A DNA stretch of 64,000 nucleotides from Capitulum mitella. Taxonomy: Eukaryota; Arthropoda; Thecostraca; Pollicipedomorpha; Pollicipedidae. The notes beneath the pieces are model-generated. The model ran no database searches. It was given only the letters and a program-made list of their open reading frames with translations, and was not told the origin of the DNA. A program made the position numbers and the translations under genes. Positions 1,078-45,316 of the stretch are shown here, in pieces. The stretch lies in assembly GCA_030062745.1 (NCBI GenBank), contig CP099842.1, forward strand, positions 24,275,822 through 24,339,821. Reading direction: 5' to 3'. Numbering within the stretch: the stretch's first letter is position 1; each line of letters opens with the position of its first letter.

Positions 1078-1340
1078 GGTGTGTGGCAATCGCCGGATGC
1101 CGTTGCCATGTTCACGCCCTGTGTATGGCATTTGCCAGACATCGTTGCCATGATGACCGTGCATGTACGACAGTCGTCGGATATCATTGACATGCTGACG
1201 CGGTCTGTGGCAGGCTCTGGACACAATTGTCATGGCGATGCTGTGTGTGTAGGATTCACCAGACACGGTCGGCGTGATGACGTGTGTATGTCGGCCACAG
1301 GATGCCGTCATGGTGACGCTCTGTGTATGACAGTCGCCAG
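1078..1340 (+). repeat. About 40-bp minisatellite ending at a splice acceptor
   Basis: About seven imperfect units of roughly 40 bp. Each begins near TGTGTATGGCA, contains a TCGCCAG-like block and then GTTGCCATG-like sequence. The last unit ends in GTCGCCAG, directly before the TUBGCP2 coding exon, so the repeat supplies the likely acceptor of that exon. Confidence 0.7.
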
Positions 1341-1491
1341 AGCCCCGGAACGCCGCTGAGAGCAGCACGTTCGAGAGCAGCGTGGCCGAGATGGACAAGG
1401 AGTTCAGCACGGTGCTGCTCACCCTGCTGGACAGCATCTCCGACTTCGGACGGGAGAACTACAATGCCAAGCTGATCAGCATTCTGTACAG
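1341..1491 (+). CDS. TUBGCP2: TUBGCP2 penultimate coding exon
   Basis: Open in the frame that continues into the last exon; donor AG|GTGATG after 1491. The acceptor is either CAG at 1338-1340 or GAG at 1358-1360. Conservation clearly starts by STFESS (1364 on). Confidence 0.85.
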
Positions 1492-1916
1492 GTGATGATC
1501 CGGTTCGGTCCGTTCGGTCTCTGGTGTGCTTCCTCCTGACCGAACACTCCGCTGATTTGGCATTCGCCTCGCCATTGGAAACTTGCCTGCTTTCTTTGCT
1601 ACCCAGGCATATGTGCTTAATACCAGCCATACGGACTTTTTAGCTTTACCCTGAACAAGAAATGTTATCAGAATGTTGAAATTGCAGGTTACAGGCACGT
1701 GTTAAATGAACTTAGGAAACTCTTGAAGGGGAGCCGAGTGGGCCGAGTTACATGCCCTTTGTCACTGGCATGCGGCCTGTTTGGGCATTCCTGAACCCAT
1801 CTGATCGTCACCACTGCCCCAGGCTGGACTTCAATGGCTTCTACACGGAGAGGCTGGAACAGCGAGCCAGCGCCCGCGCCGAGCCGACCCTCTCTGTGCC
1901 GGCCGGCCTGCTGTGA
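1341..1916 (+). CDS. TUBGCP2: Gamma-tubulin complex component 2, C-terminal end (two exons)
   Basis: GCP2 pairs with GCP3 in the gamma-tubulin small complex that nucleates microtubules at centrosomes. Only the last two coding exons lie here: 1341-1491 and 1823-1916, joined in phase 2 (AG|gt ... ag|G gives Arg). The first encodes a helical stretch with FESSVAEMDKEF; the second gives RLDFNGFYTERLE, the signature of the GCP2 C-terminus, followed by a short tail and TGA at 1914-1916. The 5' end of the first exon is uncertain (1341 or 1361), because the sequence before it is minisatellite. The rest of the gene lies left of the window. It converges on the ODF3-like gene. Family recognition rests on the C-terminal motif and alignment from memory. 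Confidence 0.88.
1823..1916 (+). CDS. TUBGCP2: TUBGCP2 last exon
   Basis: Acceptor CTGCCCCAG|G at 1822/1823. It encodes RLDFNGFYTERLE (first Arg shared with the previous exon), then a short Ala/Arg-rich tail ending at TGA 1914-1916. Confidence 0.92.
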
Positions 1917-3662: not shown

Positions 3663-3767
3663 TTAGTTCCGCGAGGGGAGGTCTTCATGTGAGGTCGATC
3701 TGAACTTCCCCAGGTATGGCGAGTGTTTCAGGCCGAAGGTGTACTGCGGCGTTCTTCTGCTAATCGC
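3663..3767 (-). CDS. ODF3: ODF3-like last exon
   Basis: Acceptor GGTTTCAG before 3767, phase 0. It encodes AISRRTPQYTFGLKHSPYLG and a short tail to the stop at 3665-3663. The intron to exon 4 happens to lack stops in frame, but it encodes no SHIPPO motif. Confidence 0.87.
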   Translation of the reverse strand, partial: AISRRTPQYTFGLKHSPYLGKFRSTSHEDLPSRN

Positions 3768-6677
3768 CTGAAACCGATTAACAGCCCAGCTGGTACACAT
3801 GGAAAGCCTGGATTCGGATCGAAGCGAGGCTCGTACGCATGGACAATGGCCACCCCGACTACACACGAGTGATCCAATTGCTTCACGTCTGGGCATCCTG
3901 CAGTTTGCACGACCCTGACTCCATCCCTGACTCCTGCAGACAGCAGCACCACGGCCCTTCTCATACCCCTTGACCCCTTCACTGACACCGTCCCTTGGGC
4001 TGTTGGACGCTGACTCCTTCACTGGCCCGCCTGGCATCCTGCAGCATCCTGGCCTTCCGTCCGACCCTCTAATCGCCGGTCTTTTGCACTCTGACACCGT
4101 CACCGACCCTGCACCGACCTTGTCCTGTAGGCTGTAGGCGGCCGGGCCCGGCTTCTGGGTGTGGTCGCTCGGCACGGGCGTGCGGTCGCGCAGCGAGTAG
4201 GCCGGGCTGCGCGGCTGCAGCGCCACCGCCTGGCCGCCGTCGTACTGGCCCGGCGCCGGGAAGCCGGCCCGCTCGTCGGCAGGCTGCCGGCCGCGGCCCT
4301 GGATCGTGAAGCGCGGCGCGTCCCCAAGCAGCTCCCGCACCGTGTACGAGTTGGGCGCTGCCGGCGAGGGCGTCAGCATCGTCCGTCGCGCCGACTATAA
4401 GAACTTCATTATCCAATGACTTAGTCATCAAAACTAGCTCGGTCCTTGAACTCAGACGCGGCTCATTCTGCCTCTGATCAAAATGACAAGTTTGTAAACT
4501 AGAACCCTACTGGATTAACTGGCTTGAAAGGGTTATATTACCCACAAAACAATCCATTCGTATTCCCAGCCCACAGGATAATAATGATGATACGATATAA
4601 ATAAGAACGATACAACAGTTCGAAATACTGTTATCAGTATTTCGATGGTTTTATGGGGCCATATATCGACAGGCCCATGGGCTTCCGAGAAGATTTATGA
4701 GGGCTTTACGATCTCGTTCAGGAGCTCATCCAGCTCTGCGGGCGTCTCGCGGCCCCAACCTGGCGCGCTGCTGGCCCGTTTCGAGTCGAGCCGGTGGCCG
4801 AAGCTGTAGCGGGGCGAGCTGGCCGCCAGCACGTTCGTGTTCACCGAGTACTCCCCCGGCGCCGGAGTCGGCTCCTGGCGGCGGCAGCGGGCGCGGCCGG
4901 CTATACTGCGGGCCGGGGTCACGTCCTTCCCTGCCGAGGACGGGGAGAGGGTCAGCTGAGCCACATCCTTCCCTGCCGAGGACGGGGAAAGGATCAGATG
5001 AGCCACGTCCTTCCCTACCGAGGACGGGGAAAGGGTCAGCTGAGCCACGTCCTTCCCTACCGAGGACGGGGAAAGGGTCAACTGAGTCATGTCCTTCCCT
5101 GCCGGTGACGGGGAGGGTCAGATGAGCCACGTCCTCCCCCCCCCCACAGGTACAGAACGTAGAGGTAGAGGCAGGTACAGAAGGACTCAATGGTTCATTC
5201 CTGGAGAAACTAAAACAGATTTCATCCTGCTAGGAGGTAAAACATAAGCAGAAAAACAGCATACATATTCCGGGCGCAGCTCAACACTTGAAACGAAAAG
5301 CACCGATCGCAGGCTATAAATCGTATGCAACCGTCCAGGATCGCCTGCATCCATTTCCCAAAAACTGGTCGGCGAATGTGAGCCAGGTTGACAGAGCTCG
5401 CCGGAGGTCATGGCCAGCGTCTTTTTCTGGCCGTCGGGCCGTCTGCCCGTCCATCAAACAGTGGACTTTCCCTCTCGTCGACCTCCTCTGCCGTCCCATC
5501 CCCGCCGTCCACCACCCTGGGCCTGAGACGGCCGGCGCCAGCCGCCGGTGCCGGCGGTACCTTTGTTGGTCAGCTGGCGGGTGTTGTACTCGTTGGGCGC
5601 TGGGGTGTGGTTCAGACTGCGCATCTCGTGCCGTCCGGCGATGGTGAACGCTGGGGTCTCGCGGCCTGCGGGGACGCCTGTTAAGCAGATCAGCGCTTCA
5701 GCCGGAGACGTCCGCGGCAAACGAAACAGGCATGTCTGCCGGAGATGTCCACAGCAAACGAAACAGACAGGTCCGCCGGAAACCCGCGACACGCCAGACA
5801 GACCTACTAGGGATATCCGCCGTAAACCAGACAAACTAGTCAACCGTAAACATATATGCGGTTAAGAAAGCGTACATCGAGAGGTTGTCAAACATCAAAA
5901 CTGATTCCTTTATGCAAGATGTCAGCACTTTGTCGGGTCAAAATAAGGAATGAAGAGAGACTATGCTGGTGGCCAAAATAAACTACAGCTGGAGCGTGTC
6001 AGACTTGGCTGCATAGTAGATAAGAAAATATTCAATGCTTCATATGAAGAAAGCAACATTTATCGAATTTTGATGCTTACCAGACAACATGACGCCAACC
6101 CGCCGATATCACATGTGAAAAAAACAATCTTGAATTAGTACCAAGTATACCTAACCGAGCGCTATGGAATAATTTATGACGTTATCAAATTATTTTACGA
6201 TGCTCGTTTAGTCGCATTTAGCGTTCGCTAAACGTTGACTTTCACACAGCAATTCATTTCCGGAGCCGGTGCACAATTATCCCGGAGAGCGATTAGCATT
6301 TGCGGACGACGAATCAGCCGGCGCGATACACTTACAAAACTTGCTCTACTGTGCAGAATGGCCGAAGCATTTCCTTGAGGCTTGAGACCTTCATGATCTA
6401 AGGAAAAACATCAGTTGGACAACCTGCCCCTAAGTGATCTGTTTGCTACGCCCAAGGCGAAGAGGGGTCTCAGTCCCACGCGACTTGTTTTCATACCGAG
6501 GGAGGAGGGCGGAAGGATGGGTCTCTCCCTCTCCTGTCAGAGAGGCTGGTGGGTCCTCTGTGACCTGCTGGCCATACCTATAGTGGAGGGCAGGTTGGCG
6601 CTGCCAGGTCCGGGCGTCCTAAACTCGGCAGCTATCGGAGCTCTCGGTCTGGTCGGCGTCCACGTGCCGCGGACCAT
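3663..6677 (-). CDS. ODF3: ODF3/CIMAP1-like SHIPPO-repeat protein
   Basis: Family members are microtubule-associated proteins of sperm flagella and cilia, built from Pro-Gly-rich SHIPPO (STPGPxxY) repeats. Five exons on the - strand: 6677-6578, 5665-5561, 4930-4710, 4394-4119 and 3767-3663, with junction phases 1, 1, 0, 0 all matching. The N-terminus MVRGTWTPTRPRAPIAA then TPGPG matches the ODF3 start. Repeats follow as TPAPNEY, TPAPGEY, TMLTPSP, FPAPGQY and KPGPAAY, each with a PAFTIAGR/PRYSFGH-type partner. The C-terminus has YTFGLKHSPYLG as in ODF3. The 4710 donor (ATC|GTAAAG) is the weakest junction; without it that exon would run to TAA at 4695. A small exon could be missing between exons 1 and 2. 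Exon 3 begins inside a 42-bp minisatellite (see findings). Expression in male germ line or ciliated cells is inferred from the family. Confidence 0.85.
4119..4394 (-). CDS. ODF3: ODF3-like exon 4
   Basis: Acceptor TTCTTATAG before 4394, donor AAG|GTCGGT after 4119, both phase 0. It encodes RRTMLTPSP, DAPRFTIQGR, FPAPGQY, SPAYSLRDR and KPGPAAYSLQDK. The order matches the middle and late part of ODF3. Confidence 0.87.
4710..4930 (-). CDS. ODF3: ODF3-like exon 3
   Basis: Proximal acceptor CTCGGCAG just before 4930, phase 1. It encodes GKDVTPARSIAGRARC, EPTPAPGEY, PRYSFGHRLDSK and an acidic tail. The proposed donor is ATC|GTAAAG at 4710/4709; reading on instead meets TAA at 4697-4695. Upstream copies of the acceptor lie in the same open frame. 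Confidence 0.75.
4920..5129 (-). repeat. 42-bp minisatellite carrying splice acceptors
   Basis: Five near-identical units start near 4920, 4962, 5004, 5046 and 5088. On the - strand each carries a pyrimidine-rich run and CTCGGCAG, CTCGGTAG or ACCGGCAG followed by GGAAGGAC. The unit is 14 codons and stays open in the exon 3 frame, encoding repeats like LTLSPSSVGKDVAQ. Confidence 0.93.
5561..5665 (-). CDS. ODF3: ODF3-like exon 2
   Basis: Acceptor TCCCCGCAG before 5665, donor AAAG|GTACC after 5561; phase 1 in and out. It encodes ETPAFTIAGRHEMRS and then HTPAPNEY, one complete SHIPPO unit. Confidence 0.87.
5698..5845. repeat. About 38-44-bp degenerate tandem repeat
   Basis: Four units beginning GCCGGAGACGTCC, GCCGGAGATGTCC, GCCGGAAACCC and GCCGTAAACC, each followed by AAACGAAACAGACA-like sequence. 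It lies in ODF3-like intron 1, upstream of exon 2. Confidence 0.7.
6578..6677 (-). CDS. ODF3: ODF3-like exon 1
   Basis: It starts at ATG (complement of 6675-6677) and encodes 33 residues beginning MVRGTWTPTRPR and containing FRTPGPGS. It ends in phase 1 at a G|GTATGG donor. Confidence 0.85.
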
Positions 6678-7026
6678 GGCTTACACCTGAGAAGAACGAG
6701 TGTTGCCTCAAATATCATGCTGCTATGGAGAATGCAGCGTACACGGCCTTTCATCCTGACATCTCGACTTTCGAGACACTTATTAAATTACTGCATGACA
6801 GTGCCATATCCGGGTCCCAAGGGAACTGAATACGTTTTGACAGAGGAAAAAGGGAAGCTTCATCCGTTTACGTTGTTAGTCATACAGACGGGGCTCTATG
6901 ATCTGTGATACGACCGCCCGGTTACAGAACATGAACTCTGGTCTCACTGCTAGAGTCATCAGATGATGCCACAGAGCCTGGCAACCCAGTGTGCAGCTCT
7001 GCTTCTGAGCCGAGGGCGCAGCTGGG

Positions 7027-7440
7027 TCCTCCCAGCGCAGTGTCCGCCTCGGAGCTCAAACGAGCCTTCCTAACAGAAAGAACGCCTCAGAGCTCAGACA
7101 AACCCTCCTGACATACCGTCCGCCTCTCAGTGCGGCCGAGATCTGAGGCGGACCTCCTTTTGACACAGAGTCCGTCTCAGAGCTCGGACAAATTTTCCTG
7201 ACACACTGTCCGCCTCGGAGCTCGGACGAGCCTTGCTGACACACTGTCCGCCCCAGCGCTCAGACGAGCCTCCCTGACACACCGTCCGCCCCAGCGCTCA
7301 GACGAGCCTCCCTGACACACCGTCCGCCCCAGAGCCCAGACGAGCCTCCCTGACACACCGTCCCCCTCAGAGCTCAGACCAGCCTTCCTGACACAGTGTC
7401 CAGTATAGAGCGCAGCCGAACCCTCCTGACAAAAGGTTTG
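7027..7440. repeat. About 38-bp minisatellite
   Basis: About ten units of the form CTGACACACCGTCCGCCCCA then GCGCTCAGACGAGCCTCC. Adjacent copies near 7250-7350 are almost identical. Decayed copies (TTGACACACTGTACG, TTGACACAACGTCC) continue to about 7570. Confidence 0.92.
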
Positions 7441-8962
7441 CCTCGGAGCGCGGGATTTTTTTCAGTACGCCAACAGGCCAAGCCCTCTTGACACACTGTA
7501 CGTCTCAGAACATAACTTGTTTTTTTTTTTAGTGTGACAGCAATGCTGAGTCCTCTTGACACAACGTCCACCCCACTGACCGCTGCCTGCAAGTCGGGCA
7601 GGCCCCTCCTTACCATGACTCACTGCGCTCACCGCCTCACAGCGCGCCCCGAGGCGGGAAGGACTGGACTGGCATAAGGAGGAGGTAGAGGACCTCAAGC
7701 CTTCCCGCTCGCTGCTTTGCAGCTAACAGCCTGCTGCCACGTTCGCGGGGTGGGGACGACAGGGATCGATGGCAAGCATACCGGCACGGCGGCACCGACG
7801 GTCGCGCCGGCCGCGGCGCGTGGTCGATGTCCGAAGCTCGCGACGTATCGGAACGTCGCCGGAGCCGCCGGCGGGCTTCCTGGTGTGGTCGAGCCCACTG
7901 ACCGCTGTCAGAGGCCGGACGGACGCAGCACAGACCAGCTGAAAACAGCAGAAAGACCGACCGAGTGATACAGACCAGTTGTCAGCAGCGGCACAGCCAG
8001 AGTCGGACAGGCCAATTGTCAGCCGCAGGACGGCCTGGACAGACCCCAGTTGTCAGCATGAGGACGGGTACCAACAAACCCACTGAGAGCAGCGGGACAG
8101 ATGCAGCATCACAGAGCCTTTCACTCCTGGAACGTAACTGGTCGTTAAAGGCTGACTCTGAAGCCTTCACTATATCTGAAAGAGAAAACGAATTTGAGCA
8201 ATGGGTTGTAAGGGCAGCCGTCTGTTCATCACGATTTTAGCAGACCGCTAATTACGAACAATCTCTGCTCAGAGCGGTGCCGTGGAGGTCGCCTTTTCCC
8301 TGACCTCAGCCCGAGGCAAATCATCAAAGGTCGGACGGTGGTGGGAGCTGAGCGATTTGCTATACTACGCTTGGCATAATGAACTGATATGATCGCTGAC
8401 GAAATGCAATGCATGCGTGTAATTATCGATCTCAAAAATTGTAATATCTTGAAAAAGTTGCATTCTAGATCTTCTTGATGTGCATTCCATGTTGAGTAGA
8501 AGCGTGGAAGAAACACAGTGGAAGAATTCGTTCTAATTTTGGGGCTCACTAAAAAACAGTGCGCGCGCTTATCGCTTTCACCATCCGTCGATGAAATCAA
8601 AACCAAATGTAGTGATGATCAAGACAAATCTCTCCCTATCATTTAGAATGCGAACAGGATGTACAAATCTGGCCGTGATCGCTCCAAAAATGATTCGTCG
8701 ATCGCTCTATTCCTCGCATCATTTTAGGCGTTTACTGATCATGCAATGATTACCTTACTTCAAAACCAGTTAATTCCGCACTCAAGCCCTAACAGCAATA
8801 CTTACGGTGCGACTCTGCCTCCGCCAAGCTCTCGGATACCACAGAAGCAGGCCAGGCTCGCTGCGGCGTCGACAAAATCGAGTCACCCGCCGTCGGCGGG
8901 GAACGGCCGCGCCTCAGCCGTGCGCCCCGCACCGAGTCTGGCCGCCGACTGCCGCTGCCGGC

Positions 8963-9435
8963 CGCTCCACACCGACCCATCGCTGTACGGCCGCTCCACA
9001 CCGAACCACCGCTGTACGACCGCTCAACACAGCACCACCTCTGTACAGCCGCTCCACACCGACCCACGGCTGTACGACCGCTACACACCGCATCTGTACA
9101 ACCACACATCCCTACACACACGCTACACACCCCTGTACAGCCGCTCCACACAGCACCACCCCTGTACAGCCGCTACACACCGACCCTCCCCTGCACAGCC
9201 GCTTCACACCGACCCACTCCTGTATAGCCGCTCCCCACCGACCCACCCCTGTACAGCTGCTCCATATTGACCCACCCCTGCGCCGTCACCAGCCACCCCA
9301 CTCTAACCCACCCTTGTATCGTCATTAGCCATTTTACACCGACCCACCCCTGTACATTCGCTCCACACTGACCCACCTCTGTCCAGACGCTCCATATCGA
9401 CCCACTCCTGCTACCTGAACAGCCGCTCCACACCC
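8963..9435. repeat. About 29-bp minisatellite
   Basis: About sixteen units of CCGCTCCACACCGACCCA then CCCCTGTACAG, with substitutions increasing to the right. The apparent Thr/Pro/His-rich open frames across it are repeat translations. Confidence 0.93.
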
Positions 9436-10224
9436 GTCATATCCGGATGTGCGTTCGCCTCGTCAGTAAGACCCGGCGGCGGCGGTGTTTGGTGCAGGGT
9501 GAACGGCCCGTCCTATTGAAGGCCGCAATCGATTTAGTTTGGCTCGGTCGGCGGAGGAAAATAGCTGTGCATTCATGACTGAATGGACTGAACGGACTGA
9601 ATGGAAGTAAATCGGGTGGTCTTAGATCCGAGTATTGGATGTGTCGAGTCCAGAGAACATTTGCTTGGTTTACTGCTTTGAAGAACATGTTGGAGACTGA
9701 AAGCGCTGATACAGTACAAAACTTCCGAACTGTCAAAGGCGTCTGCTAAGCTCGTTTCCAGCCGGTTCAAAAAAGCAAGCAAAAAGAAACAAAAAACGGG
9801 TGAACGCCTCCTGTCTAACAACGGCGATCTTTGGAGATCTTTCGCCGGTGTATTTCAACGGCATTTGAATCAGGGATGGACATTCTTCAGTGGCACGTAA
9901 TTTTTGGTTGCCTCGGGAGCCGGCAGCTGAACCTCAACCTCAGCCTGCTGCTGTTTAAGGCGTTTATTTGGAAACAATCTAAATCTGGTGGCTCACTGTC
10001 GGTGCAACACTTCAGTGCGTCTGGAAAAATCACGACTGAGGTCCGGTGGCATGCAGCCATTGAAACCGGGAAGCAGGAATTATTTGTTGATGTATGGCGT
10101 GCACCGATATGCACCGCATTGAATGTAAGAAAATTCTGTTTTTGACCCACCGTGAAAGGCGTACACCCACTCTCCTGTGTTGCGGCTGGCCTGGCCCGCT
10201 CACCGACCGACCCAGCGGCCGGCC

Positions 10225-10435
10225 ACTGAGGTGTGTCGCATTTGTGTAACGGTAAGACGAACTGTGTGATCGCAAAGGGTGTGGTGTGTGCGTCATGTGG
10301 TGTGTATGTCATTGACAGACGAATTGCGTGATCGCGACATATGTGGTGTGTACGAGTATGTCGTTGACAGTAAGGCGGATTGCGTGATCGCGGCATACGC
10401 ATGTGGGTAGTGTGTATGTGACTGTGCGCAAATGT
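10225..10435. repeat. About 60-70-bp degenerate tandem repeat
   Basis: Three copies of a unit with GACGAATTGCGTGATCGC followed by TGTGGTGTGTATG and a CATTGACAG-like end. Confidence 0.75.
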
Positions 10436-12187: not shown

Positions 12188-15100
12188 CTGCGGGCGGACC
12201 ACGGCGACGCTATCGGTATTCGGCATTGCGTGCTGACTGGTCTAATAGGCCGCACTTGAGATTTCACTGCGGCAGTTGCGGGATGATCACACACGAAGCT
12301 TCCTAACACCAGCGTTTTCGCCGCAGTATGGACAGAACTGAGGATTATCGCGAATTCCGCCGCATCACGAGATGACATCATCGAGTCACACCCTTTCCCC
12401 AAATATCTCAACCAGCGTACTTAATAGCTTAAGTGAAGTCATCAAAAACGTCTATAGACATCCCAATTTAGAACGCCTTCAAAAGCTCTGGACCCACGAC
12501 TGCTGTCAGCTTGATCAGCGCATCTGCCATTTCCCACACACGCCAGACCGCTTCAGACCACTTCCCACCATACAGCAGTCCAGCAGCGACTCTGACCTGG
12601 CGAGGTCGGCGGCCAGCGGCAGCATCCAGGCCGGCCAGGAGCTGTAGCCGGTCGCCGCCACGGCCGCCAGCTGCACGGCCGGCCGCAGCACGTACAGGGT
12701 CTCAGCCGCCAGCCGGCGCCCCTGCAGCGGCCGCGCCAGCCGCGGCGTCGGCGACGGCGCGCGCGGCACGCCCCACGCCCGGCGCACCGGCGACGCGTCT
12801 GCCGAGACGGGCCGACCGGTCACGGGCCGTCCAGAGACGGGGCAGAGGTTACAGAAGTCAGGGCCACAGGTCACCACATTGAGGACCAGAGGTCGCAGAG
12901 GTCAAGGCCACAGGTCACAGCAGTGACGACCAAAGCTCGTGGAGGTCAGGGCCACATGTGATCGTGCTGAGGGCCACAGGTCGCGGTACGGAGGAACAGA
13001 TGTTACGGTGGTGACGGTCAGAGGCCGTAGTACTGAGAAGTGGAGGTTATATCGGAAAAACAGCAGCCAGAAAAAAACAGTCTGCGACGACGCCCCGAAG
13101 TAAAAGCGGATAATCACCAGAGGGGGCACAGAAGACGACCGAAGGAAACGGCAAGAACAACCGACCTCAGGTGGCGGCAAGAATTATCAGACATCACGGC
13201 CGCGAAAACAGGGGTCAGCGGACGTACCACCCAACGTGTAGAAGCGAGGAAAGAGACTGTAGAAAATGGCGCATTCACCCGTTCAACAGCTCTCCCATTA
13301 AACCAGGCGGTCCAAACTGAGAAACAGAGCCGATAAAACCGGCGTACGAGACATGCTACAGGTTAACATAGCATTCAGCGACGGGTCGCAAAAGGGACGC
13401 CGACCAAATCTGAGTCAAGAGTCGGACCGGTACCTGTTTCCACGCTGCGCACGCGGCGTCCAGTGCTGGGGAGCACAACCACCTCGTCCTTGACCTCGGA
13501 GTCGCAGCTGGGTGTGACGTCAGGACTGAGCGGGGGTGACAACAGCATCCCACTGCCGCGGCCGTACAGCAGGATCAGCCGCAGACAGACCCTGCCGGAC
13601 ATCAGACGTGTAAACAAAGCAATCAGGTCCAGGCACAGCCGAGGCACGCAATATCGGCAGCTGTATACACATCCGAAAATATATCAAAAAGTAAAAAAGC
13701 AAGTGGAAAAACAGACAGCCGAAATGGCACTCCAATACCAGTTGCAGACACATTCAGCAGGACATAGAAAGTAGACCATAACCATCAGCACATCCAAAGC
13801 AGGGTCATGACCCTATCCAAATCGAAATTCAGTTTCAATATATTTTCTACTTTTTAACATTGTTTTGTATCGTTCCACTCCCGCTATCAATAAGGCCTAA
13901 TACAATAGAGAATGTCGTTACAAAGCCGATTAAAACACACCGCATTAACGGTACATTACAAAAAAAAAAAACGTCACAGCCCTACAAAAAAAAACATTAG
14001 CTATTTTTTTTTCATTCAGCAGCATCATTTACAAAACCCTTGGAACGCCGACCAAGCCAGCCTCGCATCCGTTCCTCCGTCAGCAGCGGCACCCACTTGA
14101 CGATCTGGACGGTGACGATGGTGGCCCAGCGGCCGGCCGGGCCGAACATCTGTCCGGCGGCCAGCTCCAGGAAGACCTCGGCGTACTCGAGCAGCGCCAG
14201 CCAGGCGCGCAGCCGGCGGCCGGCCACTTCGGGCAGCTGCGGCCGGCCGGCCGGCGCCGCCACCAGCAGGCGGTTGGCCAGCGACAGCAGCCGCGACACA
14301 GAGTACACCAGTTCCGAGAGAACAGAGACTCGAGACTCGGTCCGTCCTGTCGGTCACAGGGGAGCAGCGGTGTCAACAGCAGCCGCGACACAGAGTACAC
14401 CAGCTCCGAGAGAACAGAGACTCGAGACTCGGTCCGTCCTGTCGGTCACAGGGGAGCAGGGGTGTCAACAGCAGCCGCGACACAGAGTACACCAGCTCCG
14501 AGAGAACAGAGACTCGAGACTCGGTCCGTCCTGTCGGTCACATGGGAGGGGAGCAGGGGTGTCAGCAGCAGCCGCGACACAGAGTACACCAGCTCCGGCA
14601 GGCAGATTCCGTCCATCCTGTCAGCACAGAGGAGCAGGGGTGTCAGCAGACACCGTCAGGGTACAGCAGTTCCGATACGCAGATGCGGCCCGTCCTGCTG
14701 GTCATAGGGAAGCTGCAGAGTTCACTGCCAGGATGCCAAGCTGTCAAGAACATAGACAGCTGCTAAAAATGCACGATTACGTTAGTTTTGGTTAGTTAGG
14801 ACGAGCGAGAAAACTGGCCACAACTAGCCGGAAATGGGACAGGAGCACTGTAATAATCTCTTAGTCGGAAAGTGAGTACCACGTGGCACGCATGCATACC
14901 CCACTTATACAAATACTGCTTACAGCTGGACACTCAGAAAAAATGAAACTACAACATCTGATAAAGAATAAGCACTAACAGAAGTGCAAAAAGTATAGGG
15001 AAGAGGGCATTCTTGGCCGCAGCAAACTGTATCCAATTTTGGGTTGAGTTTGCCAGTCACTGAGTTTCTTTCTGTGTTCGTCCTGTGGGGGGAAACGGAA

Positions 15101-20648: not shown

Positions 20649-23600
20649 GTGAGCTGGCTGGGGCCAGGCCGGGAGCTGGGGTCGGACTCCTGCGGGTACT
20701 GGGCTTGGCCACGGAAGGGATCCGCGGATTGGCATAGCTGCTGGAGCCGGCCAAGACTCATCAGGCAACTTTGCTTGTTTTATGGCTCTGGATCAGTAGG
20801 CGGTGTTCTGTGTTGGTTCGGGAAAGGGTGGTTTCGGGGGCATGCAAGCCATGGTTTAATGTGGATCAGATGGGGCATGTAAGCCTTGCCATAGATCAGT
20901 GATGTCTGCTATGTTTGTTTTCCTCCAGGATTGCATACTTGCCCTTGAAGAACTGAAGCCCTTCGCTTAGAACTGTGTGATAAATGTGGTTCTTGGGCAA
21001 TTCAGAATACTGCTCGTCAAATGGGCAGAAAGGCAAATTGGAAAGAATTGTCCATTAAATTTTCAGTTTTGACATTTGAAAAAGCATCTTTATCTTTTAA
21101 TGACGAGGGCAAATCTTTGTGCTGTCGATGACAATCAACTGTTTGGATCTGTGAAGCGTTTGGCGTGATTGTCCTGACCGCAGCCTGACCTGAGACTGAG
21201 ACCGAGACCGAGACTGAGACCTAAGACTGAAATAATCCTGACTGCGGCCCGGTTTGCCAGCGGCCGACTCGGTGGCGGAGGCCGAGGACGCCGGCGACTC
21301 CAGGCCGCCGGACGCCTCCGGCTACTCGGGCGACCACGACGCCAGCCCCAAGCCGGCGGCGCGAGCCAAGGACAAGCGGCCCGTCAGGTGGGCGGCCGTG
21401 GCGGCCGGCGCCCGTCAGGCGGCGCAGAGTGGGCACGAGAGGGGTGATGACACTGCTGGTCCGTCCGCGGGCGCATTGATCATTCCACGCCACTCGTGGA
21501 GAGCTGGAGGCTTGCAGAGTGGACGGTGGCGTGCGATTTTATCGTGCTGGCTTCCGAGACTGAAATTTTGCGCTGTGTCACTTTGAAATAGGATTACGTC
21601 TGATAGCGCAGCCAGTGGCGGAATCGTATGTTCCTGTGCGATCTGGACTCGGCGCCTCCGAGGTCCCGTTTCGCCGTGCTTCTGGTCCCCGGGTCGCTGA
21701 CACAGGTCCCTGCTGCACCCAGGCCGAGTCACATCAACAAGGGAAAGCAGCAGCGCGACCGGAGGAAGCTCAGGGAGAAGCGGCGCAGCACCGGCGTCGT
21801 CCACATGCCCTCTACCGAAGTCAGTGTGAGTGTAGGACGGCCATGCCTGTTGTATTGCGATAAGCGTAGTGGTTTTGGTCGCTGGCGCTTGTCGTCGACT
21901 TGTCCCTCGCTTTATGCCGTCTTTTTGGAAAAAATACATGGTATTGTTCTATTTGGGCTCGGCTGAGATTCTTATTTCCAGTAAACTGAAGTCTTTTTTT
22001 CATAGCATCTACCTTGTCTTTTTGGTGCTCGACGCGCCAACAGCCAGCTTTGCTGTCATTCATATGCTCGTTTATAGCGTTGCGTGGACTTGTGTGGAAA
22101 CTTTGTTTTTTGTTGCAGTCGACAGGTGGCAGCACTAACGAGGACGACGAGGAGCTGTCCACCGGCCAAGTCATGTGTAACGAAACGCGGCGGAACACCC
22201 AACAGAACGAGTTCAGCGACCCGAGGGGCAATGCAAGTTCCCTGGGAATCAGCCATGCGGACCGCCAGTTCAAGAACCCCCTCAGAAACAAAAGGTACCA
22301 CACTGACGTTTCTGTTTCCCACGTCGCACCTTGCGATACAACGATGCGCGAACGCTGCTTGGGTTACCGTGTACCTGCTTGGCGCGAAAGAATGACCTAC
22401 CTGTCTGTTGTCCATTATGTGTCCAGTTGTCCAGCAGTGTACCGTGAATGGTGGCTCAGTCAGTAGAACGCTGGTCCCCCGGTCCCGGCAAGATGGGTTC
22501 TTGTCTTCTCAACGCCCGATGTTTGGCCTGCGGGTCAGCTGAAAACTGGCTGATATAGGGTCATGCAGACTTCCACACGGTCGTGTCTTGGTCCTGACGG
22601 CACGGTAAGGTTTTGCCACAAAATCTCGTTACCTGGAATTGCGCGATCACGACGCAGGTGTGGGTCGGAGTCCGTGCAAAATGCTCTGCCTAACACGGGC
22701 TCCGATCCCTGACTGCCTTAGCAAACCATTCGGATCAAGGTACAAAGGAAAGATTATAATGAGAACGGTAACTTTCGCTAGCCATGCGGCTAAGAGCTGG
22801 ACTAGGGAACTGGGATAATCTTCAGTTGTAATGGATGATGTGTAAGCATCATGACTGTTGAACAATCGCCAGACGTATTTGGTAACGTATAAGCATCACA
22901 TCTGGTATTTTGAAATGTCAGTTCGCTGTGTGCCAAAGCTCGTTAGCTGTGGACTTAGGAAGCTGAGCTGCTTGAAAACTCTCGTTCTTGTGTGTGTGTG
23001 TTTTTTTTTTGCTGTTTCTGTCGTCGTTTCGACGCTCTGAAAGTCTGATAACAAAGTTACGCGTGAAGTCATTCGACTGCCGAGCATGAACCGGATCTGA
23101 CGCAGACCGCACGTGCCCGGGATGTCGTGGTCACAGCCAACTTAGCGTGGTGAGCGCCTCACGCCGCGCCTGCGGCGCTCCGAGGTACGAGCGCTCCACC
23201 ACAGCCACCACAACGGTATTGCGAGGCACGAGCCTGCTAGGACAGCCACCACAGTGGCGAACGTGGCGCAGTTAGTGTGGACCCATGCAGGCGTCCGCGT
23301 TACGAGTGAACGGTGGTGGATGAGCGGAAAGCTACGTCCGAGGCCCCAGCCACGATCTTCCACGCTTTGTCTTCGCCGTCTGGTCCCGCCGCTGGCTCCC
23401 CGGCCAGCGATCCATTCGACTTGGCGTCGGGCATCTCAAGTGGCCGCCTCCGGCCGCCCAGGAGTACGGGGCTCAGACGGGCCCGCCGCCGCCGGTGTGT
23501 AAAGCGTGCGGCGTGACAGACTGGGCGTCTCGCTTCGGCTCTGGCGGTCTGCCGATCCACGCCACGGCGGCCGTGCACGCCGGGCTTCGGGCGTGCGGTG

Positions 23601-26600
23601 CGGGGCTGTTTTTGTCCGTGTTGGTGGACCGGCGCAGCGTACGAACAGACACCATTAAGGAATATTTTTAATGCCTGATAGGACTCGTGTTTTACGTATA
23701 ATGCGTCATATCTAATGTCTAAATTGTGTGTAATGCGTAGACTAGAAGGGTACAGCAGGAAGAAACAGGTAGGACAAAGAGGTGGGAAGAAACGAGGTAA
23801 CGACAGATCGGCCGGAGTTTCGGCCAGAGATGAAGACAGAGCCGGAGTCTCGAGCCGGCACCGTCACCAGCTCTGCCCCGTGCTGTCACGCAGACTTATG
23901 TGCCACTCTCACCCCCGATGCCAGCCAGAGAGAGCCGCTGGAGCGGTCCGCGGCTCGTTACCATACAGCGGCCGACCGTCTGAATAAGCGAGCGCCGTGC
24001 GGGCCGTTCCGGCTGATTGGCCTGTCTCTGAGGCGCACCTGGCGCGTGGCCCCGCGGGGCGACTGGAGGCGGGCCCACCTGGCGGGACGGGGGCGGCCCG
24101 TCCCCCTGGGCAGGCCGGTCCCGAGGCGGCCGACGTCGTCCATCGCCGGCGCTGGCGGCCGCGACGCGGCGGAATGCAGGGTCGCCGCCGGCCCGGGGGG
24201 GGCGGCGAGGAGCGGAGCGCAGGTGCCGCCGCCGCGTCCGGCTGGCGGCGCCACGCCTCTGCCGAACCGCTGCCTCCCGCGTTGCATCATGCATGCAGCG
24301 TTTCTAGTCTACGCCCTGCCGTCGCCGAACGCCTCCAGCGAATTGGCCACGGCCCGGGCTAGGCCGTGCGTCTTCTCCGTGACGCGGTGCGGTGACGGTC
24401 GCCGTTCCTCGAGCGGGGTCTCCGGCGGGGTGGGCGGCCTCGGCTCGTCTCGGCCCGACCCGGCCCGACCCGACCCGACCCGACCCGACCCGACCCGGCC
24501 CGGCTCGGCTCGGCTCGGCCCGGCCCGGCCCTGCCCGTCCTTGGGGCGCGGCGTGTTTTGCCTTGGGGCGGAATGTGTTTTGACCGCGGCCGGCGCGGCT
24601 ACCCAGGTGTCCGGCCGTGATCAGATTAGGCCGTTCTGTCGGGAGACGCCGGCAGCCAGCACGCGACACAGCGCGCAGGCAAACAAACCGTCGGCGGCGG
24701 TGAGGCGCCTGGCACAGGGTACCGGCCGACGACTCGACCTTGTCGGCGGGCGGCGGCGCTGGCGTGCCCGGGCGGGAAGGCTGGAGGGGCTGGGAACTTT
24801 GCATTATCTGCGAAGCGGTTGCCGGAACTCTGCGAAGTGCCGTCAGACGGTCTCGGCCAATTTCACATAACACTCGTGGATCAGACCGTGGCTGTGAATA
24901 CCAACTGAAGCATGAATGTGCCGCGTTGACTTCCATCAGCAGATCTCGCGAGGCTTTTTGACCTGTCGCCGCCACTGGGCTTCTAGCTGGTCTCACTCCG
25001 AACCAGCCCATACAAGAACACATCGTATATACGAGATCTTTCATTTGCCGTATGCGGAGAACAGGCAATGCACAGCATTGAGAAAAGGGGTCACGACTCC
25101 GGGCGGGCATTGGCATTCAACGCAAACTCAGTGGCATGAGCGTTTCACCTCAGTGTTTGACTGTGGTTAGTGTGTCTGGCTGGCTTTACTGTCCGGTTTG
25201 ATTAGTTTAAATCCTTCAGACGTTAAATAACTGGATCCAGTCAGTCATAAAGTGGCTTTGGAAAGTTCACTTACGCAGTCAAATTGTATCAGCCATCAAC
25301 AGTTTTACTGAGCATGTTCATATGCAGCATGTTGGACGTTAAAAATGACTTGTTTACAAACTCAGATGTCCCACACTGTATAGCACAATAGCTTATCTGG
25401 TGTAAAACATTAAACCTCTCCTGAAAGCATGGCTATCTCTGAATCATTCACATTTTTCCAGCGCCTTCGCGTGATGTCAACTATGATTCGCTTAGCGTGA
25501 TTTGAACAGCGAGGAACATTTTTTTTCTCCATACGTGTTAATGGAGTGTTACGGAAACCGTGCTTTCTTATTTTTTTCTTCCGCAAGTCCTCAGTGCCCA
25601 CGCAAGGTAGTTTTCACCGTTTTATTTCTGAATGCCTCAATCCCTTTTGTCCCGATCCATAAGTCTAAGCGACCGGAATTAAATTCACAACGTACCATAT
25701 GCTCCCGATGCCGAATTTCTGTGAACCGTAATAGTCCAGCCGTAATGGCTTTTACCACCATAAAGGCTCCTTATTGGGCGCATGACAAGCTAGGTAGACA
25801 GCGTTCCTGTTAAAGTTTGAAGTGTAGTTCCAGATGTGTGGCACGTTTATTTCCCCTTATGCACGATATAAACGTGTGTTTATCGATCGTTTTCAGCATT
25901 TTGTATCCGAGAAATTGCAAGTTTATGCTTGTGGAGCTCCTGGTGGAAACCATATGATTCGGCTCCCAGTGGTCGTGAAGTCAGTAACCTGCAGAAAGCG
26001 TAGTGGCCGGACGGACGGGCTGCACAGTTTGTTTGTTTGTTTGTTTGTTTTTGTTCTTTGTTCTGCTAGTTGGAAGTCACATGGCGTACCACATCGCTCG
26101 TAATAATGCAGCGTACTTCTAAGATGCTAGTTTTCTGTGAATTTCTTTGGATGATAATGAAATTGATGTGCCAGCATTAACAGGTGTGCAGCCTAGGGCC
26201 AGCTCCTGTAACATTTATGGATGGAGATTGCAGTGGGGCGGATGTGACTTCCGCCACACCAACTTCAAAAGTTGGTATAGCGTGCCTCATCAACCTTGAA
26301 CAGGGGGTGTTTCCAAAAGTGGATGTGGCATGGAACCATCCACAGCCCAAATTTTACTTTTTTCGCCAAATTCTGCAGTGAGGAACTAGAAATATATTGC
26401 ATCGCAGAAATAGATTATGGAACAATGTCATCGCACAGTACTCCAGTCCAGTACCGTTCGGGTGTTTCTGGGGTGCCCCATGAGGCCTCGAAATAGCCAG
26501 ACACCTCTTAAGCTAACTTTGACAATGGATAGTTTCCTGCGTGCCGCCTTTCAGCTAAAAACAATAGAGTTAATGTAAAACGGAACCGAAAACAAACTAC

Positions 26601-29600: not shown

Positions 29601-32600
29601 AGACTAGCACGGAAAACTCTGTAAGTTATCCATAGCAGAAAGTGAAGAAAGGGCATTTGCTACATAGTTCAGCTCTGGCGGGGATTGTCCACGTATTACG
29701 TTGCGTGTTCCGGTGCCCATAGTATATGATACCACAGAAAGTTCAAGTACAGTTGCGGATGGATGGGTTATTTTTAGTAGGATACTGTATTGGTATTATA
29801 TAGATATTTTATTGGATTATTATGGACGAGGAAACCAAGCGTTTGAAAAGTCTGCGTTCTCGTGTGACCCGGTCCGCCTGACGAGACGCTGTCGTGACCT
29901 GCGAACGGCGCCCGGCGTGCCGCAGCCTCTCCGACCTGGACGCTGACGACGAGGACAACCAGGACTGCGACTCGCTCGGCATGTCTGACACGCCGCTGCT
30001 GACGACCGGCCACCCGCCGCGGCCGCTGGAGCGAACCCCGGAGCGGCCGGCCGACCGCGTGCTCAAGGTCAGTCCTGGGCGGAGTCAGGTGACCTGGGCG
30101 GAGTCAGGTCACCTGCTCACCTGCCGACCGGCCTCTGGAGGCGGCCGGCCGACCTCGGCTCAGGTCAGTCCTGGGCGAGATCAGGTGACCTGGGTGGGGT
30201 CAGGTCACCTGCAGACGGGCCGACCGCGTGCTCAAGGTCAGTCCTGGGCGAGGTCAGTTGACCCGGGCGGGGCCTGGTCATCAGCAGACCGGCCGACCGT
30301 GTACTCAAGGTCAGCCCTGGACGGAGTCAGGTCATGTACCGACCGGTCCCGGTCCGGGGTCTGGCGACAGGTCAAGTCGAGCTGTGATCGTGGACAAGGT
30401 GTCAGACGATCTGCTGTCTCGAGGGAAGTTGTCAGAAGCTGGCTTATAGCAGCCTCTTATTTGATTTTTTTTATTATTTCTATGCTCGTGTTCATGCAAC
30501 AAAAAGGCAAAAGGGTTTGCTTTTCCTGGACGACTGTACATGTCCGGGTTCACGGCGTGCCCGTCCCGTAACCGTCGTTGGCTTTGTTCGGACGGCGCTG
30601 CTGACTGCACAGGCCGTCAGCGCTCCGGCCCCTGCATTGTACACAACAGTTGCGGTCTCTGAAGCGGACCGCATCGGTCGGGTCAGTGCACCCGGGTATG
30701 TCCAGCGCGTTGTCGGGCGCAGGGTCGCCGGTCACCGCCTCCCCGTCCGGCGGGGCGCCTCTCGCCGGCCACCGGCGGTGGTGACGTCACGGGCTCATCA
30801 GCGGGCCGTCGCTGTCAGCCCGGTGGCGTGGCCGGCGGCTGATGTATGCGGCGGCGCGGTGATGACCGATGGAGCCCGGCTGGCGTCGGGGGAGGGGCTG
30901 GGGTCCCTGTGGTCGGGGTCGGCTGGTCAGGTGAAGAGGCGGGACGAGGGACCGGTTCGTCCCGAGCTACCTGCTTGGTCGCCGCGGCCTTGCCACAACA
31001 CGGTGGTGACCGCAGCGTGGCTGGTGTTTGAGCCAGTCAGCGGAGCGGAGCGGCAACACCCTGCCTCATGGCTGTTCTTGTGGACTGCACGAGCAAGTTT
31101 ATGTCGTCTTTGCGATGGGTTGATTGAGGCCAACGCTCAGCGGGTACGAGCCCAAGAAGGTGATGCCACCGCGGGTGTTCGGTAGAATTGTCATCCAGTA
31201 TCGTTGGCATGTTGGTTTGGCTTTGGGATATTTCTTCTATTGCGGTTTGTCTGGATGGGAGAAACTATTCTTTTTAATATATGTTTTTTGCACGCACTTG
31301 ATTACTTAAGTTCGCAATTCTTTGTCATATTTTATCCCTTGTTTTCGCATAAGTTTCAAAGTTTCGTAGTCGCCCCGTCTGTTTTGGAGTTGCCTTCTCG
31401 TATGGTTTATTATGGAGCGTTGGTACGCCTAGAATTATCGACAATAGCGAACATTGGCGACACAAATGATTTTGCTCTGTTTTATTTTGCAGTCGTTTGC
31501 TCTTCGTTTACGTAACGTTTCGCGAATTCCTGAGGGTGTGTCCGCTTGTTACCACCGGACATAGATCGCGGTGCACGCCCGTGCGAACCAACCAGCCCCC
31601 GTAACCGACCGTTGGGCCCACTCGAGGTGTAAACGCCCGAGACGCCGCGCGGCTCGTCAGGCCGGCCGGTTCGTCGGAGCCGGAGCTGTTTGTTGCCGAG
31701 CGCAGTCCCCAGAGAATCGCTCCTCTACACGGAAGACGAGCCGGCAGGTTCAGCTGTCACCGGGCCGCCGGCCGGCGGGCGCTGACGGGGAGGGGGGCGC
31801 CTCAAGGGCGTCACGAGCGGGCCACACGGAACTGGAGGGGGCTGATTATCTGCCAGTCGCCCAGACCGGCGCGCGGGGTCGGGGCCTCCCTGTGTTGCCT
31901 TTCGCCCGGCTCTCGTGCTGGAATGGAAGAGCCCTGTATTATTCTGGGCTTCGTTTAGCTGGTGTTTATCTTAATTGTCTTGTACGTGATTTTCGCAGTT
32001 GTTGTCGTCGCAAGGATGTCGCCCCTGCTAGCACGTATGCGTGCCGGGAACGTGCTTGCTATCTTGAAGTGTTCCGTATGCTCCTCCTTTTCATTTGTGT
32101 TCTGTTTGCTTGTGTGTTTTCATTTTCTTTATTTGCGTTTTTTTTAACTGACCCCATTTCATACCGGAGTATGGTATTCTCGCGAACCGGGCGGCGTTAC
32201 TGGCTTGCTACCTGCTTGCCCGGTTCGCGATGACCACACCTCACTATCATCGGTGGCGGCAGTAGATGTAGAAAAAAAGAGTAGCGGCGAACGGTGTGAC
32301 CCGAAGTGATCCGTGAAGTAATGTAGAAACCATGTTATTTAATGTAATGAGATCACACGGGCATGGAAGGGCATCCCTGCCTACCCATTCCCTGCTTACC
32401 CTTTAAGGGTAGAGGATAAAAAAAATACGCTGACTGTAGCTGGAGCTGTCGGTCAGTATGGGCTGCGCTCTGGTTGTTAGACCAGCGGCTTCCAGCGAAT
32501 CATGGACACCGTAAGTGGCGAGCGACAACAGGATAATATCGTGCTCCCTGGTGCTGGCATCAGATCGATTGCACCCCCCCAATCTGGCAGATAGCCACGG

Positions 32601-35600: not shown

Positions 35601-37090
35601 TGCAAGGAAACATGCGTGAGGCAGGGCTGTCTATTTCATCGTGCGCACAGACCTATAAAACATAATCTGTGCCGTGAGCATATGGGTGTTAAGGCTGTCA
35701 TTTTCTGGATCTATTATCTTTGCGTAGTTGGTCGACGTCAACTGCTCTCTCTCTTCTTCAGTTTTCTTCGACCTTTTGTCCAGTTCAGGCGGGTCTTGTC
35801 AGTTTGTCCTGTTGTCAGTTTGCGTTCTGCCGTCGGTGGTCCGTCACATTTGGCTCTTTGGCTGGCACTGATCCGCCGGGTGCTTATCACAACTCGGGTT
35901 GACGTTTGCAAGCAGCTTTTTTTGTCGAAGGGCGTCACTTCCGTGTTCCGGAGATGTCAACATGTTGACTCCATCGGCTGTATACTGCGCAACGTTTGTG
36001 AGTAATGTCATCCGCTTCCAGCCCATGCTTCTTGTCGCCTCAGACCCGAGACTGGGCAGGGTAATAGCACCACCTCGTGTTGATGACCTGTGTCGTTTTT
36101 CAACCGACTACCGTCACACTGGTGTCAGTTCTTATGGCCGAAGGAGCTGTCGCCTGTCTGTATGTCTGCCACTTCGAGCCGGCCATCTGCAGAGACTTAT
36201 CGGCCATTACATTCTTGTGGAGGACGTTCCCAATGTATAGAAACGATGCCAGCACCTGTCGTTTGGGTGTAGATGTTATCTGTCATCCTAATATTAACCC
36301 CCATTTTGACAAGAGTGTTACCATCTGCAGACGATCTGTACGTCTCGTCCGTCGTGCTGGCGCCAGCCCATTCTGAGGCGCTGGTGCTGCCACCTGTTGG
36401 CGACCCGCGTGACTCGTTTGATAGTATTGTGCAGTCCCGAACGGAAATGGCGTTGCCATTGTTTTTCATTGCACGTTGCGTCACCTATCCCGCGGTGGCG
36501 TGGCGTGGTTCCACATCAGACAGGTGACTGCCGTGCTTGTTGGTGACCGGTTCGCCGTCTCAGTCACCCTGATGTTGTCTGGTGTTCTGATGGCAATCCG
36601 TGTCGTCTGTGACGGTGGTGCCACCTGCTAGTGGCTGGTATATCTTCTGTGGCCCCCAGATGTCTGTCCCTGTGTGCGCTGATGGTGTTACTTCGTGTCG
36701 TTGGCATGCATGTCCTCTGTCGCTCTGGTACCAGCCCGCGTTTGGCGTCTGCTGTAACGGCACCGCCACGTGCTGCTGGCCGATAGATATTCCGTTTTCC
36801 GGGCGTCAGTTCCTGCCTGTTGTGACGGTGCTGGCACCCGTCGCTGACCGCTGCCGCCCCGTCGTCAGCCCCACTTGCTATACTGACGGTGCTGCCGCCT
36901 GTCGGTGACCGGCGTCCGTGCCCGGCAGCTGGAGGAGGAGAACGAGCGGCTGCGGCGGGCGCTGGCCGAGCGCGACCAGCGGATAGCCGGCCTGGAGGCG
37001 GCGCTGGGCCGCAGCCGCGACGAGAAGCACCAGCTGCGCCTGGAGAACGACGCCCTTATCAAGGCCATGGAGGCGCTCACCGCCAAGTAG
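20507..37090 (+). CDS. PAWR: Par-4 / PRKC apoptosis WT1 regulator homologue, six exons
   Basis: Par-4 is a pro-apoptotic scaffold. Its SAC segment carries a nuclear-localisation signal and its C-terminal leucine zipper binds partners such as atypical PKC and WT1. Exons: 20507-20648, 21261-21387, 21723-21825, 22119-22294, 29926-30067 and 36929-37090. Phases 1, 2, 0, 2, 0 all agree; about 283 residues (human 340). The SAC core RRKLREKRRSTGVVHMP in exon 3 is nearly identical to vertebrate Par-4. Exon 4 has an acidic EDDEE stretch and then TQQNEFSDP. Exon 5 starts NKSLSDLDADDED, like the vertebrate YKSTTSVSEED segment. Exon 6 is an uninterrupted heptad coiled coil, from LEEENERLRRALAERD to MEALTAK then TAG. 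Start: ATG 20507, or the second ATG at 20522 with better context (GCCGCCATGG). Introns 4 and 5 are about 7.6 and 6.9 kb and hold SINE, piggyBac-like and minisatellite DNA. Confidence 0.93.
21188..21226 (+). repeat. GAGACC/T hexamer tract
   Basis: GAGACTGAGACCGAGACCGA and following units, about six hexamers, 35-70 bases upstream of the PAWR exon 2 acceptor. Confidence 0.85.
21261..21387 (+). CDS. PAWR: PAWR exon 2
   Basis: Acceptor GGTTTGCCAG, phase 1; donor CAG|GTGGGC, phase 2. It encodes an acidic then basic linker (ADSVAEAEDAG to KDKRPVR), as expected before the SAC domain. Confidence 0.82.
21723..21825 (+). CDS. PAWR: PAWR exon 3 (SAC core)
   Basis: Acceptor CTGCTGCACCCAG|G; donor AGT|GTGAGT after 21825 (alternative GAA|GTCAGT after 21819, also phase 0). 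It encodes SHINKGKQQRDRRKLREKR and RSTGVVHMPSTE, the Par-4 signature. Confidence 0.93.
22119..22294 (+). CDS. PAWR: PAWR exon 4
   Basis: Acceptor TTTTTTGTTGCAG, phase 0; donor AAAAG|GTACC, phase 2. It encodes STGGSTNEDDEELSTGQ, then TQQNEFSDPRGNASSLG and FKNPLRNK. Confidence 0.9.
22449..22765 (+). mobile_element. tRNA-derived SINE
   Basis: The head TGGCTCAGTCAGTAGAACGC resembles a tRNA A box; a decayed B box (GGGTTCTTGTC) follows about 45 bases on. The 3' body (CGGAGTCCGTGCAAAATGCTC to GCAAACCATTCGGATCAAGG) is shared with the copy at 60684. It lies in PAWR intron 4. Confidence 0.78.
24440..24535. repeat. CGACC / CGGCT pentamer microsatellite
   Basis: About 18 pentamers: CGGCCCGACC variants, then CGACC repeated, then GGCTC repeated. 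Confidence 0.92.
26028..26055. repeat. TTTG tetranucleotide microsatellite
   Basis: Six consecutive GTTT units within PAWR intron 4. Confidence 0.9.
29160..29480. repeat. GGAGCTGAGCTGGAGC minisatellite
   Basis: About ten degenerate units of 25-45 bases built on CTGGAGCTGAGCTGGAGC with GCGGCCGGCC spacers, in PAWR intron 4, ending about 450 bases before exon 5. Confidence 0.8.
29926..30067 (+). CDS. PAWR: PAWR exon 5
   Basis: Acceptor GTGCCGCAG|C, phase 2; donor CTCAAG|GTCAGT, phase 0. It encodes SLSDLDADDEDNQD and ADRVLK, the start of the coiled coil. The donor and preceding codons recur downstream in a tandem repeat. Confidence 0.88.
30048..30330 (+). repeat. 73-96-bp tandem repeat duplicating the PAWR exon 5 donor
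   Basis: GGCCGACCGCGTGCTCAAG then GTCAGTCCTGGGCG recurs. Donor-like (C)AG|GTCAG(T/C)CCTGG sites follow 30067, 30163, 30236 and 30309 (steps 96, 73, 73). The first is the PAWR exon 5 end. Confidence 0.88.
33236..34479 (+). mobile_element. piggyBac-like non-autonomous element, uninterrupted copy
   Basis: 1244 bp between TTAA at 33232-33235 and TTAA at 34480-34483. Ends are CCCCGTCCCCGG and the complement of CCCTATTCCCAG. A subterminal block with CCCGGCAGGGGG lies near both ends. No coding sequence of transposase size. TTAA target and CCCT ends are typical of piggyBac elements. The whole body aligns by eye with the reverse complement of 44113-48221 once the pogo insertion is removed. Confidence 0.88.
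36380..36928 (+). repeat. About 60-bp degenerate repeat ending at the PAWR exon 6 acceptor
   Basis: Blocks like GACGGTGCTGCCACCTG followed by TTGGTGACCGGCGTC recur from at least 36380, with weaker copies from about 36070. The last copy ends GTGACCGGCGTCCGTGCCCGGCAG, which is the exon 6 acceptor. Confidence 0.65.
36929..37090 (+). CDS. PAWR: PAWR exon 6 (leucine zipper)
   Basis: Acceptor GTGCCCGGCAG, phase 0; 53 codons to TAG at 37088-37090. Regular heptads, from LEEENERLRRALAERDQR to LRLENDALIKAMEALTAK, match the Par-4 C-terminal zipper. Confidence 0.92.
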   Translation: MEEENERLRRALAERDQRIAGLEAALGRSRDEKHQLRLENDALIKAMEALTAK

Positions 37091-45226: not shown

Positions 45227-45316
45227 GATACAAAACCTCGCTAAAACACTGTGACTTGTTTAAAGTACCTATGTATCTACAAATTTCAATAAGCTAATTT
45301 TTTAATATTTTTGCAG

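Follow-up and report, generated by a model that had tools for sequence, protein, structure and literature searches.

The DNA analysed here (the window) is a stretch of 64,000 nucleotides from the barnacle Capitulum mitella (assembly GCA_030062745.1, contig CP099842.1, positions 24,275,822 to 24,339,821), and four genes were modelled in it: the last two exons of TUBGCP2 on the plus strand, ODF3/CIMAP1 and PEX16 on the minus strand, and PAWR on the plus strand. In ODF3, PEX16 and PAWR, a tandem array lies across an exon-intron boundary, and the repeat unit includes exon codons together with the splice site, as had been claimed for three cases in an original prediction made from this sequence. 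We examined how the arrays are built, whether their contacts with splice sites outnumber those expected by chance, and how they compare with known repeats of this kind.

All gene models used GT-AG junctions with consistent phase throughout. Exon finding was guided by human proteins, and those sequences were not used as evidence; the ODF3, PEX16 and PAWR models were compared with proteins of barnacle relatives. In the protein search, an earlier ODF3 model showed 69% identity to Pollicipes pollicipes and 65% to Amphibalanus amphitrite, and it matched the Pfam family SHIPPO-rpt (E 1.2e-18). The PEX16 model was 68% identical to an Amphibalanus protein, and after splicing it matched Pfam Pex16 (E 3.5e-67). 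PAWR was searched as a model without exon 1, which was 65% identical to the Pollicipes pollicipes protein and 62% to that of Amphibalanus amphitrite and also matched PAWR proteins of other arthropods; its two Pfam matches were both under the curated cut-off, and it had no match among solved structures. The TUBGCP2 model matched solved chains of gamma-tubulin complex component 2 (GCP2; E 1.5e-12) and stayed under the Pfam cut-off (23.9 vs 25.8 bits). The Pollicipes matches of ODF3 and PAWR are both listed with a contig of 44,118,722 bases, which suggests that the genes are linked there too. Scans of the whole window with Rfam at gathering scores and for tRNAs gave no match.

The final splice-site list covered the first 37.2 kb of the window and held 29 sites (TUBGCP2, 3; ODF3, 8; PEX16, 8; PAWR, 10). 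Exon 1 of ODF3 and of PAWR was included, and the ODF3 exon-2 acceptor was set at 5665, replacing 5677; TUBGCP2 exons upstream of 1341, possible untranslated exons and further genes lie outside the list. Arrays were called with Tandem Repeats Finder (TRF) as a default set (period at least 10, score at least 50) and as relaxed sets at score 100 and score 80.

The acceptor of ODF3 exon 3 (4760..4930, minus strand) was covered by a 42-bp tandem array (4920..5139, minus strand; 5.3 copies and 88% matches by TRF), inside which the first exon base, 4930, lies. The exon is phase-consistent, and its junction residues agree with the Pollicipes and Amphibalanus proteins. Five copies of the acceptor were found at steps of 42 nt: the one belonging to the gene has its first exon base at 4930, the extra ones have theirs at 4972, 5014, 5056 and 5098, and each of the five carries a pyrimidine-rich tract, an AG and the exon start. 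All four extra acceptors are in phase and stop-free, and their use would add 14, 28, 42 or 56 residues. In the relatives, the join corresponds to the exon-adjacent copy, reading NKGKDVTPARS in Pollicipes, NKGRDVAPART in Amphibalanus and NKGKDIAPSRT in a second Pollicipes protein. Among the four units compared, those at 5014 and 5056 were most alike (97.6%), and the other pairs shared 86-91%. A 37-bp array of 2.2 copies (5701..5780, minus strand; TRF) that was missing from the original prediction lies 36 nt upstream of the exon-2 acceptor. Separately, an initial junction between ODF3 exons 3 and 4 was dropped, having inserted 29 residues absent from every aligned relative.

In PEX16, a 92-bp tandem array (14284..14694, minus strand) runs over the acceptor of exon 2 (14097..14346, minus strand). 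The default TRF call, 14284-14597 with 96% matches, contains the first exon base, 14346, and relaxed TRF carried the array on to 14675. The unit consists of 29 nt of intron end and 63 nt of exon 2, and it brings five acceptor copies: besides the acceptor of the gene at 14346, there are two at 14438 and 14530 and two in decayed form at 14617 and 14694; decay is strongest in the copies farthest from exon 2. All four extra acceptors would lead to early stops if used. An Amphibalanus PEX16 model, flagged as low quality and lacking exon 1, begins MRRTESRVS and shares the RTESRVS start of exon 2.

The PAWR array differs in lying over a donor. PAWR exon 5 (29926..30067, plus strand), which aligned with barnacle PAWR proteins, has its last base inside overlapping 96- and 73-bp tandem arrays (30043..30332, plus strand; TRF rows 30043-30226 and 30145-30332). 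There are four donor copies: the gene uses 30067 as its last exon base, and the extra donors come after 30163, 30236 and 30309, at +96, +169 and +242; three of the four read GTCAGT and one GTCAGC. By a rough scoring with Shapiro-Senapathy-type base frequencies, they scored 4.43, 4.60, 4.43 and 3.16 in copy order, and just 0.6% of the 2,383 GT dinucleotides on the plus strand of the first 37.2 kb score at least as high as the gene's own donor. The +96 donor is in frame and would add 32 residues; those at +169 and +242 would shift the frame. Pollicipes PAWR reads ADRLLK-LEEEN at the end of exon 5, which fits the exon-adjacent donor. The idea that repeats supply extra splice sites was borne out as far as well-formed copies of AG or GT in the ODF3, PEX16 and PAWR arrays are concerned.

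A relative offers a hint of how such a copy might be used. Of two PAWR-like isoforms of Amphibalanus, X5 (P0024) is longer than X7 (P0025) by 11 residues where exon 5 ends; X5 reads AALRQ-VCSQYP-AALRQ-LEEEN, so that the insert ends by repeating the end of exon 5. This insert can be read as opening with a valine, which read-through of a phase-0 GT donor would give, and as closing with the repeated exon end, which a 33-nt duplication carrying the donor would give, and isoform X5 looks like the use of a duplicated donor, as judged from computed protein models.

Further features of PAWR were recorded beside the arrays. Exon 3 has a tandem donor at 21812-21831, where GTCAGT is followed by GTGAGT 6 nt apart (GTCAGTGTGAGT from 21820), and the exon may end 6 nt later by way of it; no array is nearby. 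Isoforms X5 and X7 of Amphibalanus also differ by VS at the end of exon 3, matching this tandem donor. VS is present in Pollicipes too, and the choice therefore looks common to barnacles, going by the aligned proteins. In the last exon, Pollicipes PAWR (P0021) is without 23 mid-coiled-coil residues that are present in the window (36929-37090) and in the aligned Amphibalanus proteins; either these residues are truly lost or the gene prediction placed an intron there. The long intron between exons 4 and 5 holds a pentamer array of consensus CGGCC (24435-24537, 20.4 copies, 86% matches).

Of the six exon boundaries proposed to touch a repeat, the three above were confirmed; the other proposed contacts held less well. 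The hexamer tract reported near the PAWR exon-2 acceptor, with unit GAGACC, was recovered by TRF (21190..21230, plus strand) and ends 31 nt before the acceptor at 21261. At the TUBGCP2 acceptor (1341, a position uncertain by 2 nt), the proposed contact survived in relaxed TRF only, as a 42-bp array (1079..1347, plus strand; 6.6 copies, 58% matches, score 196) that reaches the acceptor; default TRF was blind to it, and nothing appeared there at score 30 either. Arrays of score at least 100 occurred in 0 of 10 shuffled sequences, and the self-similarity of this intron exceeded that of all 60 shuffles, as happened in none of five control stretches. The TUBGCP2 array is real but strongly decayed. 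The contact claimed for the PEX16 exon-4 acceptor (12798) was not found, since the 44-bp array that default TRF called there (12839..12956, minus strand) begins 41 nt upstream and stops short; nearer the acceptor lies just a low-score 15-mer stretch (12804-12841, score 48), and relaxed TRF fuses the array with GC-rich exon sequence into 12604-13037. Nor was an array touching the PAWR exon-6 acceptor (36929) recovered: TRF called none in the preceding intron. The end of that intron (36300..36915, plus strand) is weakly self-similar: its best self-match scored 36, whereas the shuffles peaked at 29 and 30, so that 0 of 60 shuffles reached it in either of the two stretches tested, and its two best self-matches stop 14 and 18 nt short of the exon.

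The original prediction had held the recurrence of such contacts to be beyond chance, and within this window that was not confirmed. Two null models were used, one taking all 37,200 circular shifts of the 37.2 kb with the 29-site list, the other re-placing arrays where GC content was within 4 points of their own. Default TRF gave 14 merged arrays, and 3 of the 29 sites lay inside them, compared with 1.75 expected under circular shifts (P 0.27) and 2.89 under GC matching (P 0.57); within 50 nt there were 5 of 29 against 2.74 under circular shifts (P 0.17). The relaxed set at score 100 held 18 arrays (0 in each of 10 shuffled sequences) and took in 6 of 29 sites, against 3.23 (circular, P 0.11) or 4.55 (GC-matched, P 0.30). 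At score 80 there were 20 arrays (mean 0.4 and maximum 2 in shuffled sequences) and 7 of 29 sites, against 3.42 (circular, P 0.07) or 4.91 (GC-matched, P 0.21). When the three array sets were each combined with three distances, P ranged from 0.07 to 0.37 under circular shifts and from 0.18 to 0.70 under GC matching, values that concern this window only and carry low power. An earlier list of 27 sites had given P 0.016-0.058 for the score-80 set (five distances, two nulls), where the corrected list of 29 gave 0.07-0.08 under circular shifts. With a 28-site list, 3 of 14 arrays included exon as well as non-exon bases, against 1.42 expected (P 0.16), and GC content was 69% in exons, 65.5% in the 101 bases around sites, 53% in the region and 58-85% in 12 of the 14 arrays. 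The recurrence is mostly as expected, because exons and most arrays both occupy GC-rich DNA.

Repeats of this build have been described in amphioxus as 'mirage' minisatellites. The accessible text of PMC3087553 and PMC3902484 reports them in Adh3, in the globins BflGb6 and BflGb9, and in TnC and PGBD5, the last two added by PMC3902484, with tandem units at acceptors and donors and with regular splicing. As far as those sources describe them, the barnacle arrays are alike in that units span the exon-intron boundary, AG or GT recurs in many copies, and the copies are decaying or uneven. In our genes, boundary-spanning units were found in ODF3, PEX16 and PAWR, AG stood in 10 of 10 acceptor copies and GT in 4 of 4 donor copies listed, and the relatives' ODF3 and PAWR proteins fit splicing at the exon-adjacent site. 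We therefore consider it probable, with good though not full confidence, that these are mirage-type minisatellites in a GC-rich barnacle gene cluster, meeting exon edges at about chance level. No special targeting is needed, because arrays and sites meet about as frequently as GC content predicts. Under this explanation, three short tandem duplications in a minisatellite-rich cluster would have happened to begin across an exon edge, and unequal exchange or slippage would then have grown the arrays into the adjoining intron. The exon-adjacent copy would mainly be spliced, the remoter copies would persist as decaying intronic decoys, and occasional use of another copy would lengthen the protein. 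Because relatives have the exon sequence as well, the gene edge must have been the seed of the arrays. The most-alike inner units of ODF3 and the decayed remote copies of PEX16 are what is expected if unequal exchange or slippage leaves the outer copies neglected.

Several points weigh against the explanation by chance-level mirages. Which copy is spliced is a prediction from DNA and relatives' proteins, and the PEX16 exon-1 join has no relative's protein behind it, the Amphibalanus model starting at exon 2. In each of the nine settings the count exceeded the mean of the circular shifts, and the relaxed-set counts stayed above the GC-matched mean, which leaves room for a mild preference for exon edges. 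GC matching is itself partly circular, as arrays that copy exon sequence are GC-rich for that reason.

A rival account is targeted birth, in which splice-site sequence would be a favoured seed of duplication in this genome, for example through slippage on GC-rich or pyrimidine-rich strands. The original prediction had proposed splice-site sequence as seed, and of this the part that stands is that the gene edge seeded the copies, as the residues common to relatives show. Targeted birth draws on the excess under circular shifts (3 of 29 vs 1.75 by default, 7 of 29 vs 3.42 with P 0.07 at score 80), on the low P values of the 27-site list and on the mixed arrays, but the excess shrinks to 3 vs 2.89, 6 vs 4.55 and 7 vs 4.91 (P 0.57, 0.30 and 0.21) once placement is GC-matched, and we regard targeting as improbable. 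It is less probable still that the copies were retained by selection as ladders of splice sites whose alternative use yields useful isoforms. The four in-phase, stop-free acceptors of ODF3, the in-frame +96 donor of PAWR and the 11 residues of Amphibalanus X5 that end by repeating the exon-5 end would suit such ladders; yet the extra ODF3 residues are missing from three aligned barnacle ODF3 proteins, stops would soon follow from each of the four extra PEX16 acceptors and a frameshift from PAWR +169 or +242, the PAWR arrays differ between species, and the isoforms are computed models.

Finally, exons might simply run through the arrays, as in an ODF3 coding minisatellite, with no splice site duplicated. 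In favour of this, an open frame spans four units of the ODF3 array (4698-5117), and in PAWR the frame of exon 5 stays open as far as 30568. The relatives' ODF3 and PAWR proteins nevertheless join at the predicted exon-adjacent site without repeats, PEX16 copies run into stops when read through, and AG or GT is retained at the corresponding place in every copy; we hold this reading to be very unlikely indeed, and the ODF3 array as coding sequence was rejected on the repeat-free proteins of relatives despite its open frame.

Other repeats and mobile elements occur in the window. Large minisatellites lie between ODF3 and PEX16, at 7042-7431 (38-bp unit) and 8961-9410 (29-bp unit), away from modelled splice sites. 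Two overlapping open reading frames (ORFs) at 45293-47259 contain a Psq-type helix-turn-helix (E 6.9e-12), a Tc5 DNA-binding domain and DDE_1 (E 1.5e-12), and are probably a pogo/Tc5-like transposon by their domains; a 57-bp tandem array (46561-46768) lies within the second ORF and keeps its frame. An ORF from 51377 has an ISXO2-like (DDE_Tnp_IS1595) transposase domain (E 1.1e-20), with a TAACC pentamer array 86 nt downstream (52362-52425, 12.8 copies). On the other strand this array reads TTAGG, which we take to be the arthropod telomere unit. A 208-bp repeat of two copies (52645-53058) follows.

The barnacle arrays extend a known kind of structure to a further animal group. They differ from the amphioxus mirages, as those are presented in the accessible text, in their barnacle host and in that 37 kb hold three genes with such arrays; for amphioxus, both length polymorphism and reverse-transcription polymerase chain reaction were demonstrated, whereas the barnacle arrays are known from one sequence. 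In human genes of segmental duplications, tandem repeats at exon-intron boundaries are reported to alter splicing (PMC2812944, accessible text), and the barnacle internal repeats likewise sit at such boundaries; there, repeat variation among paralogs comes with transcript support for altered splicing, whereas the barnacle arrays are read from DNA alone. Novel introns in Drosophila are ascribed, in the accessible part of PMC2891723, to tandem duplication of exon sequence with a proto-splice site, and the Rogers model of intron gain by tandem duplication is cited in the accessible part of PMC3087553. By those accounts, local tandem duplication multiplies splice signals as it does in the barnacle genes, but the barnacle arrays multiply one existing boundary inside an existing intron. 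No new intron between duplicated copies was seen in the arrays, each of which holds one boundary type, and the ODF3 and PAWR junctions are common to relatives. We recognised no crustacean case of splice-site mirages among the papers listed from the open-licence literature, outside which subscription papers mostly fall, and we make no claim of priority; the accessible text of PMC7536079 and PMC5405514 (coding repeats with alternative splicing in a prawn lectin family; telomerase) describes no repeats over a splice site.

The barnacle cluster gives no evidence that repeats arise by targeting at splice sites. It offers three clear cases, one of them a five-step in-frame acceptor ladder (ODF3), and it would give another test lineage beside the published mirage-like cases that we found, which come from lancelets and from segmental duplications in humans. 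In a mirage, real splice sites are multiplied in a way that is initially harmless to the gene, so that mirages serve as natural experiments on spliceosomal choice between nearly identical sites; isoforms and shifts of intron position may also stem from them. More speculatively, and in our view with only a modest chance of being right, barnacles may hold a standing population of mirages in which low-level use of duplicated sites feeds in-frame variation of protein length, a possibility that isoform X5 of Amphibalanus PAWR suggests. If this is true, barnacles would join lancelets as the second lineage of animals where isoforms and shifted intron positions arise by this route often enough for genome-wide study.

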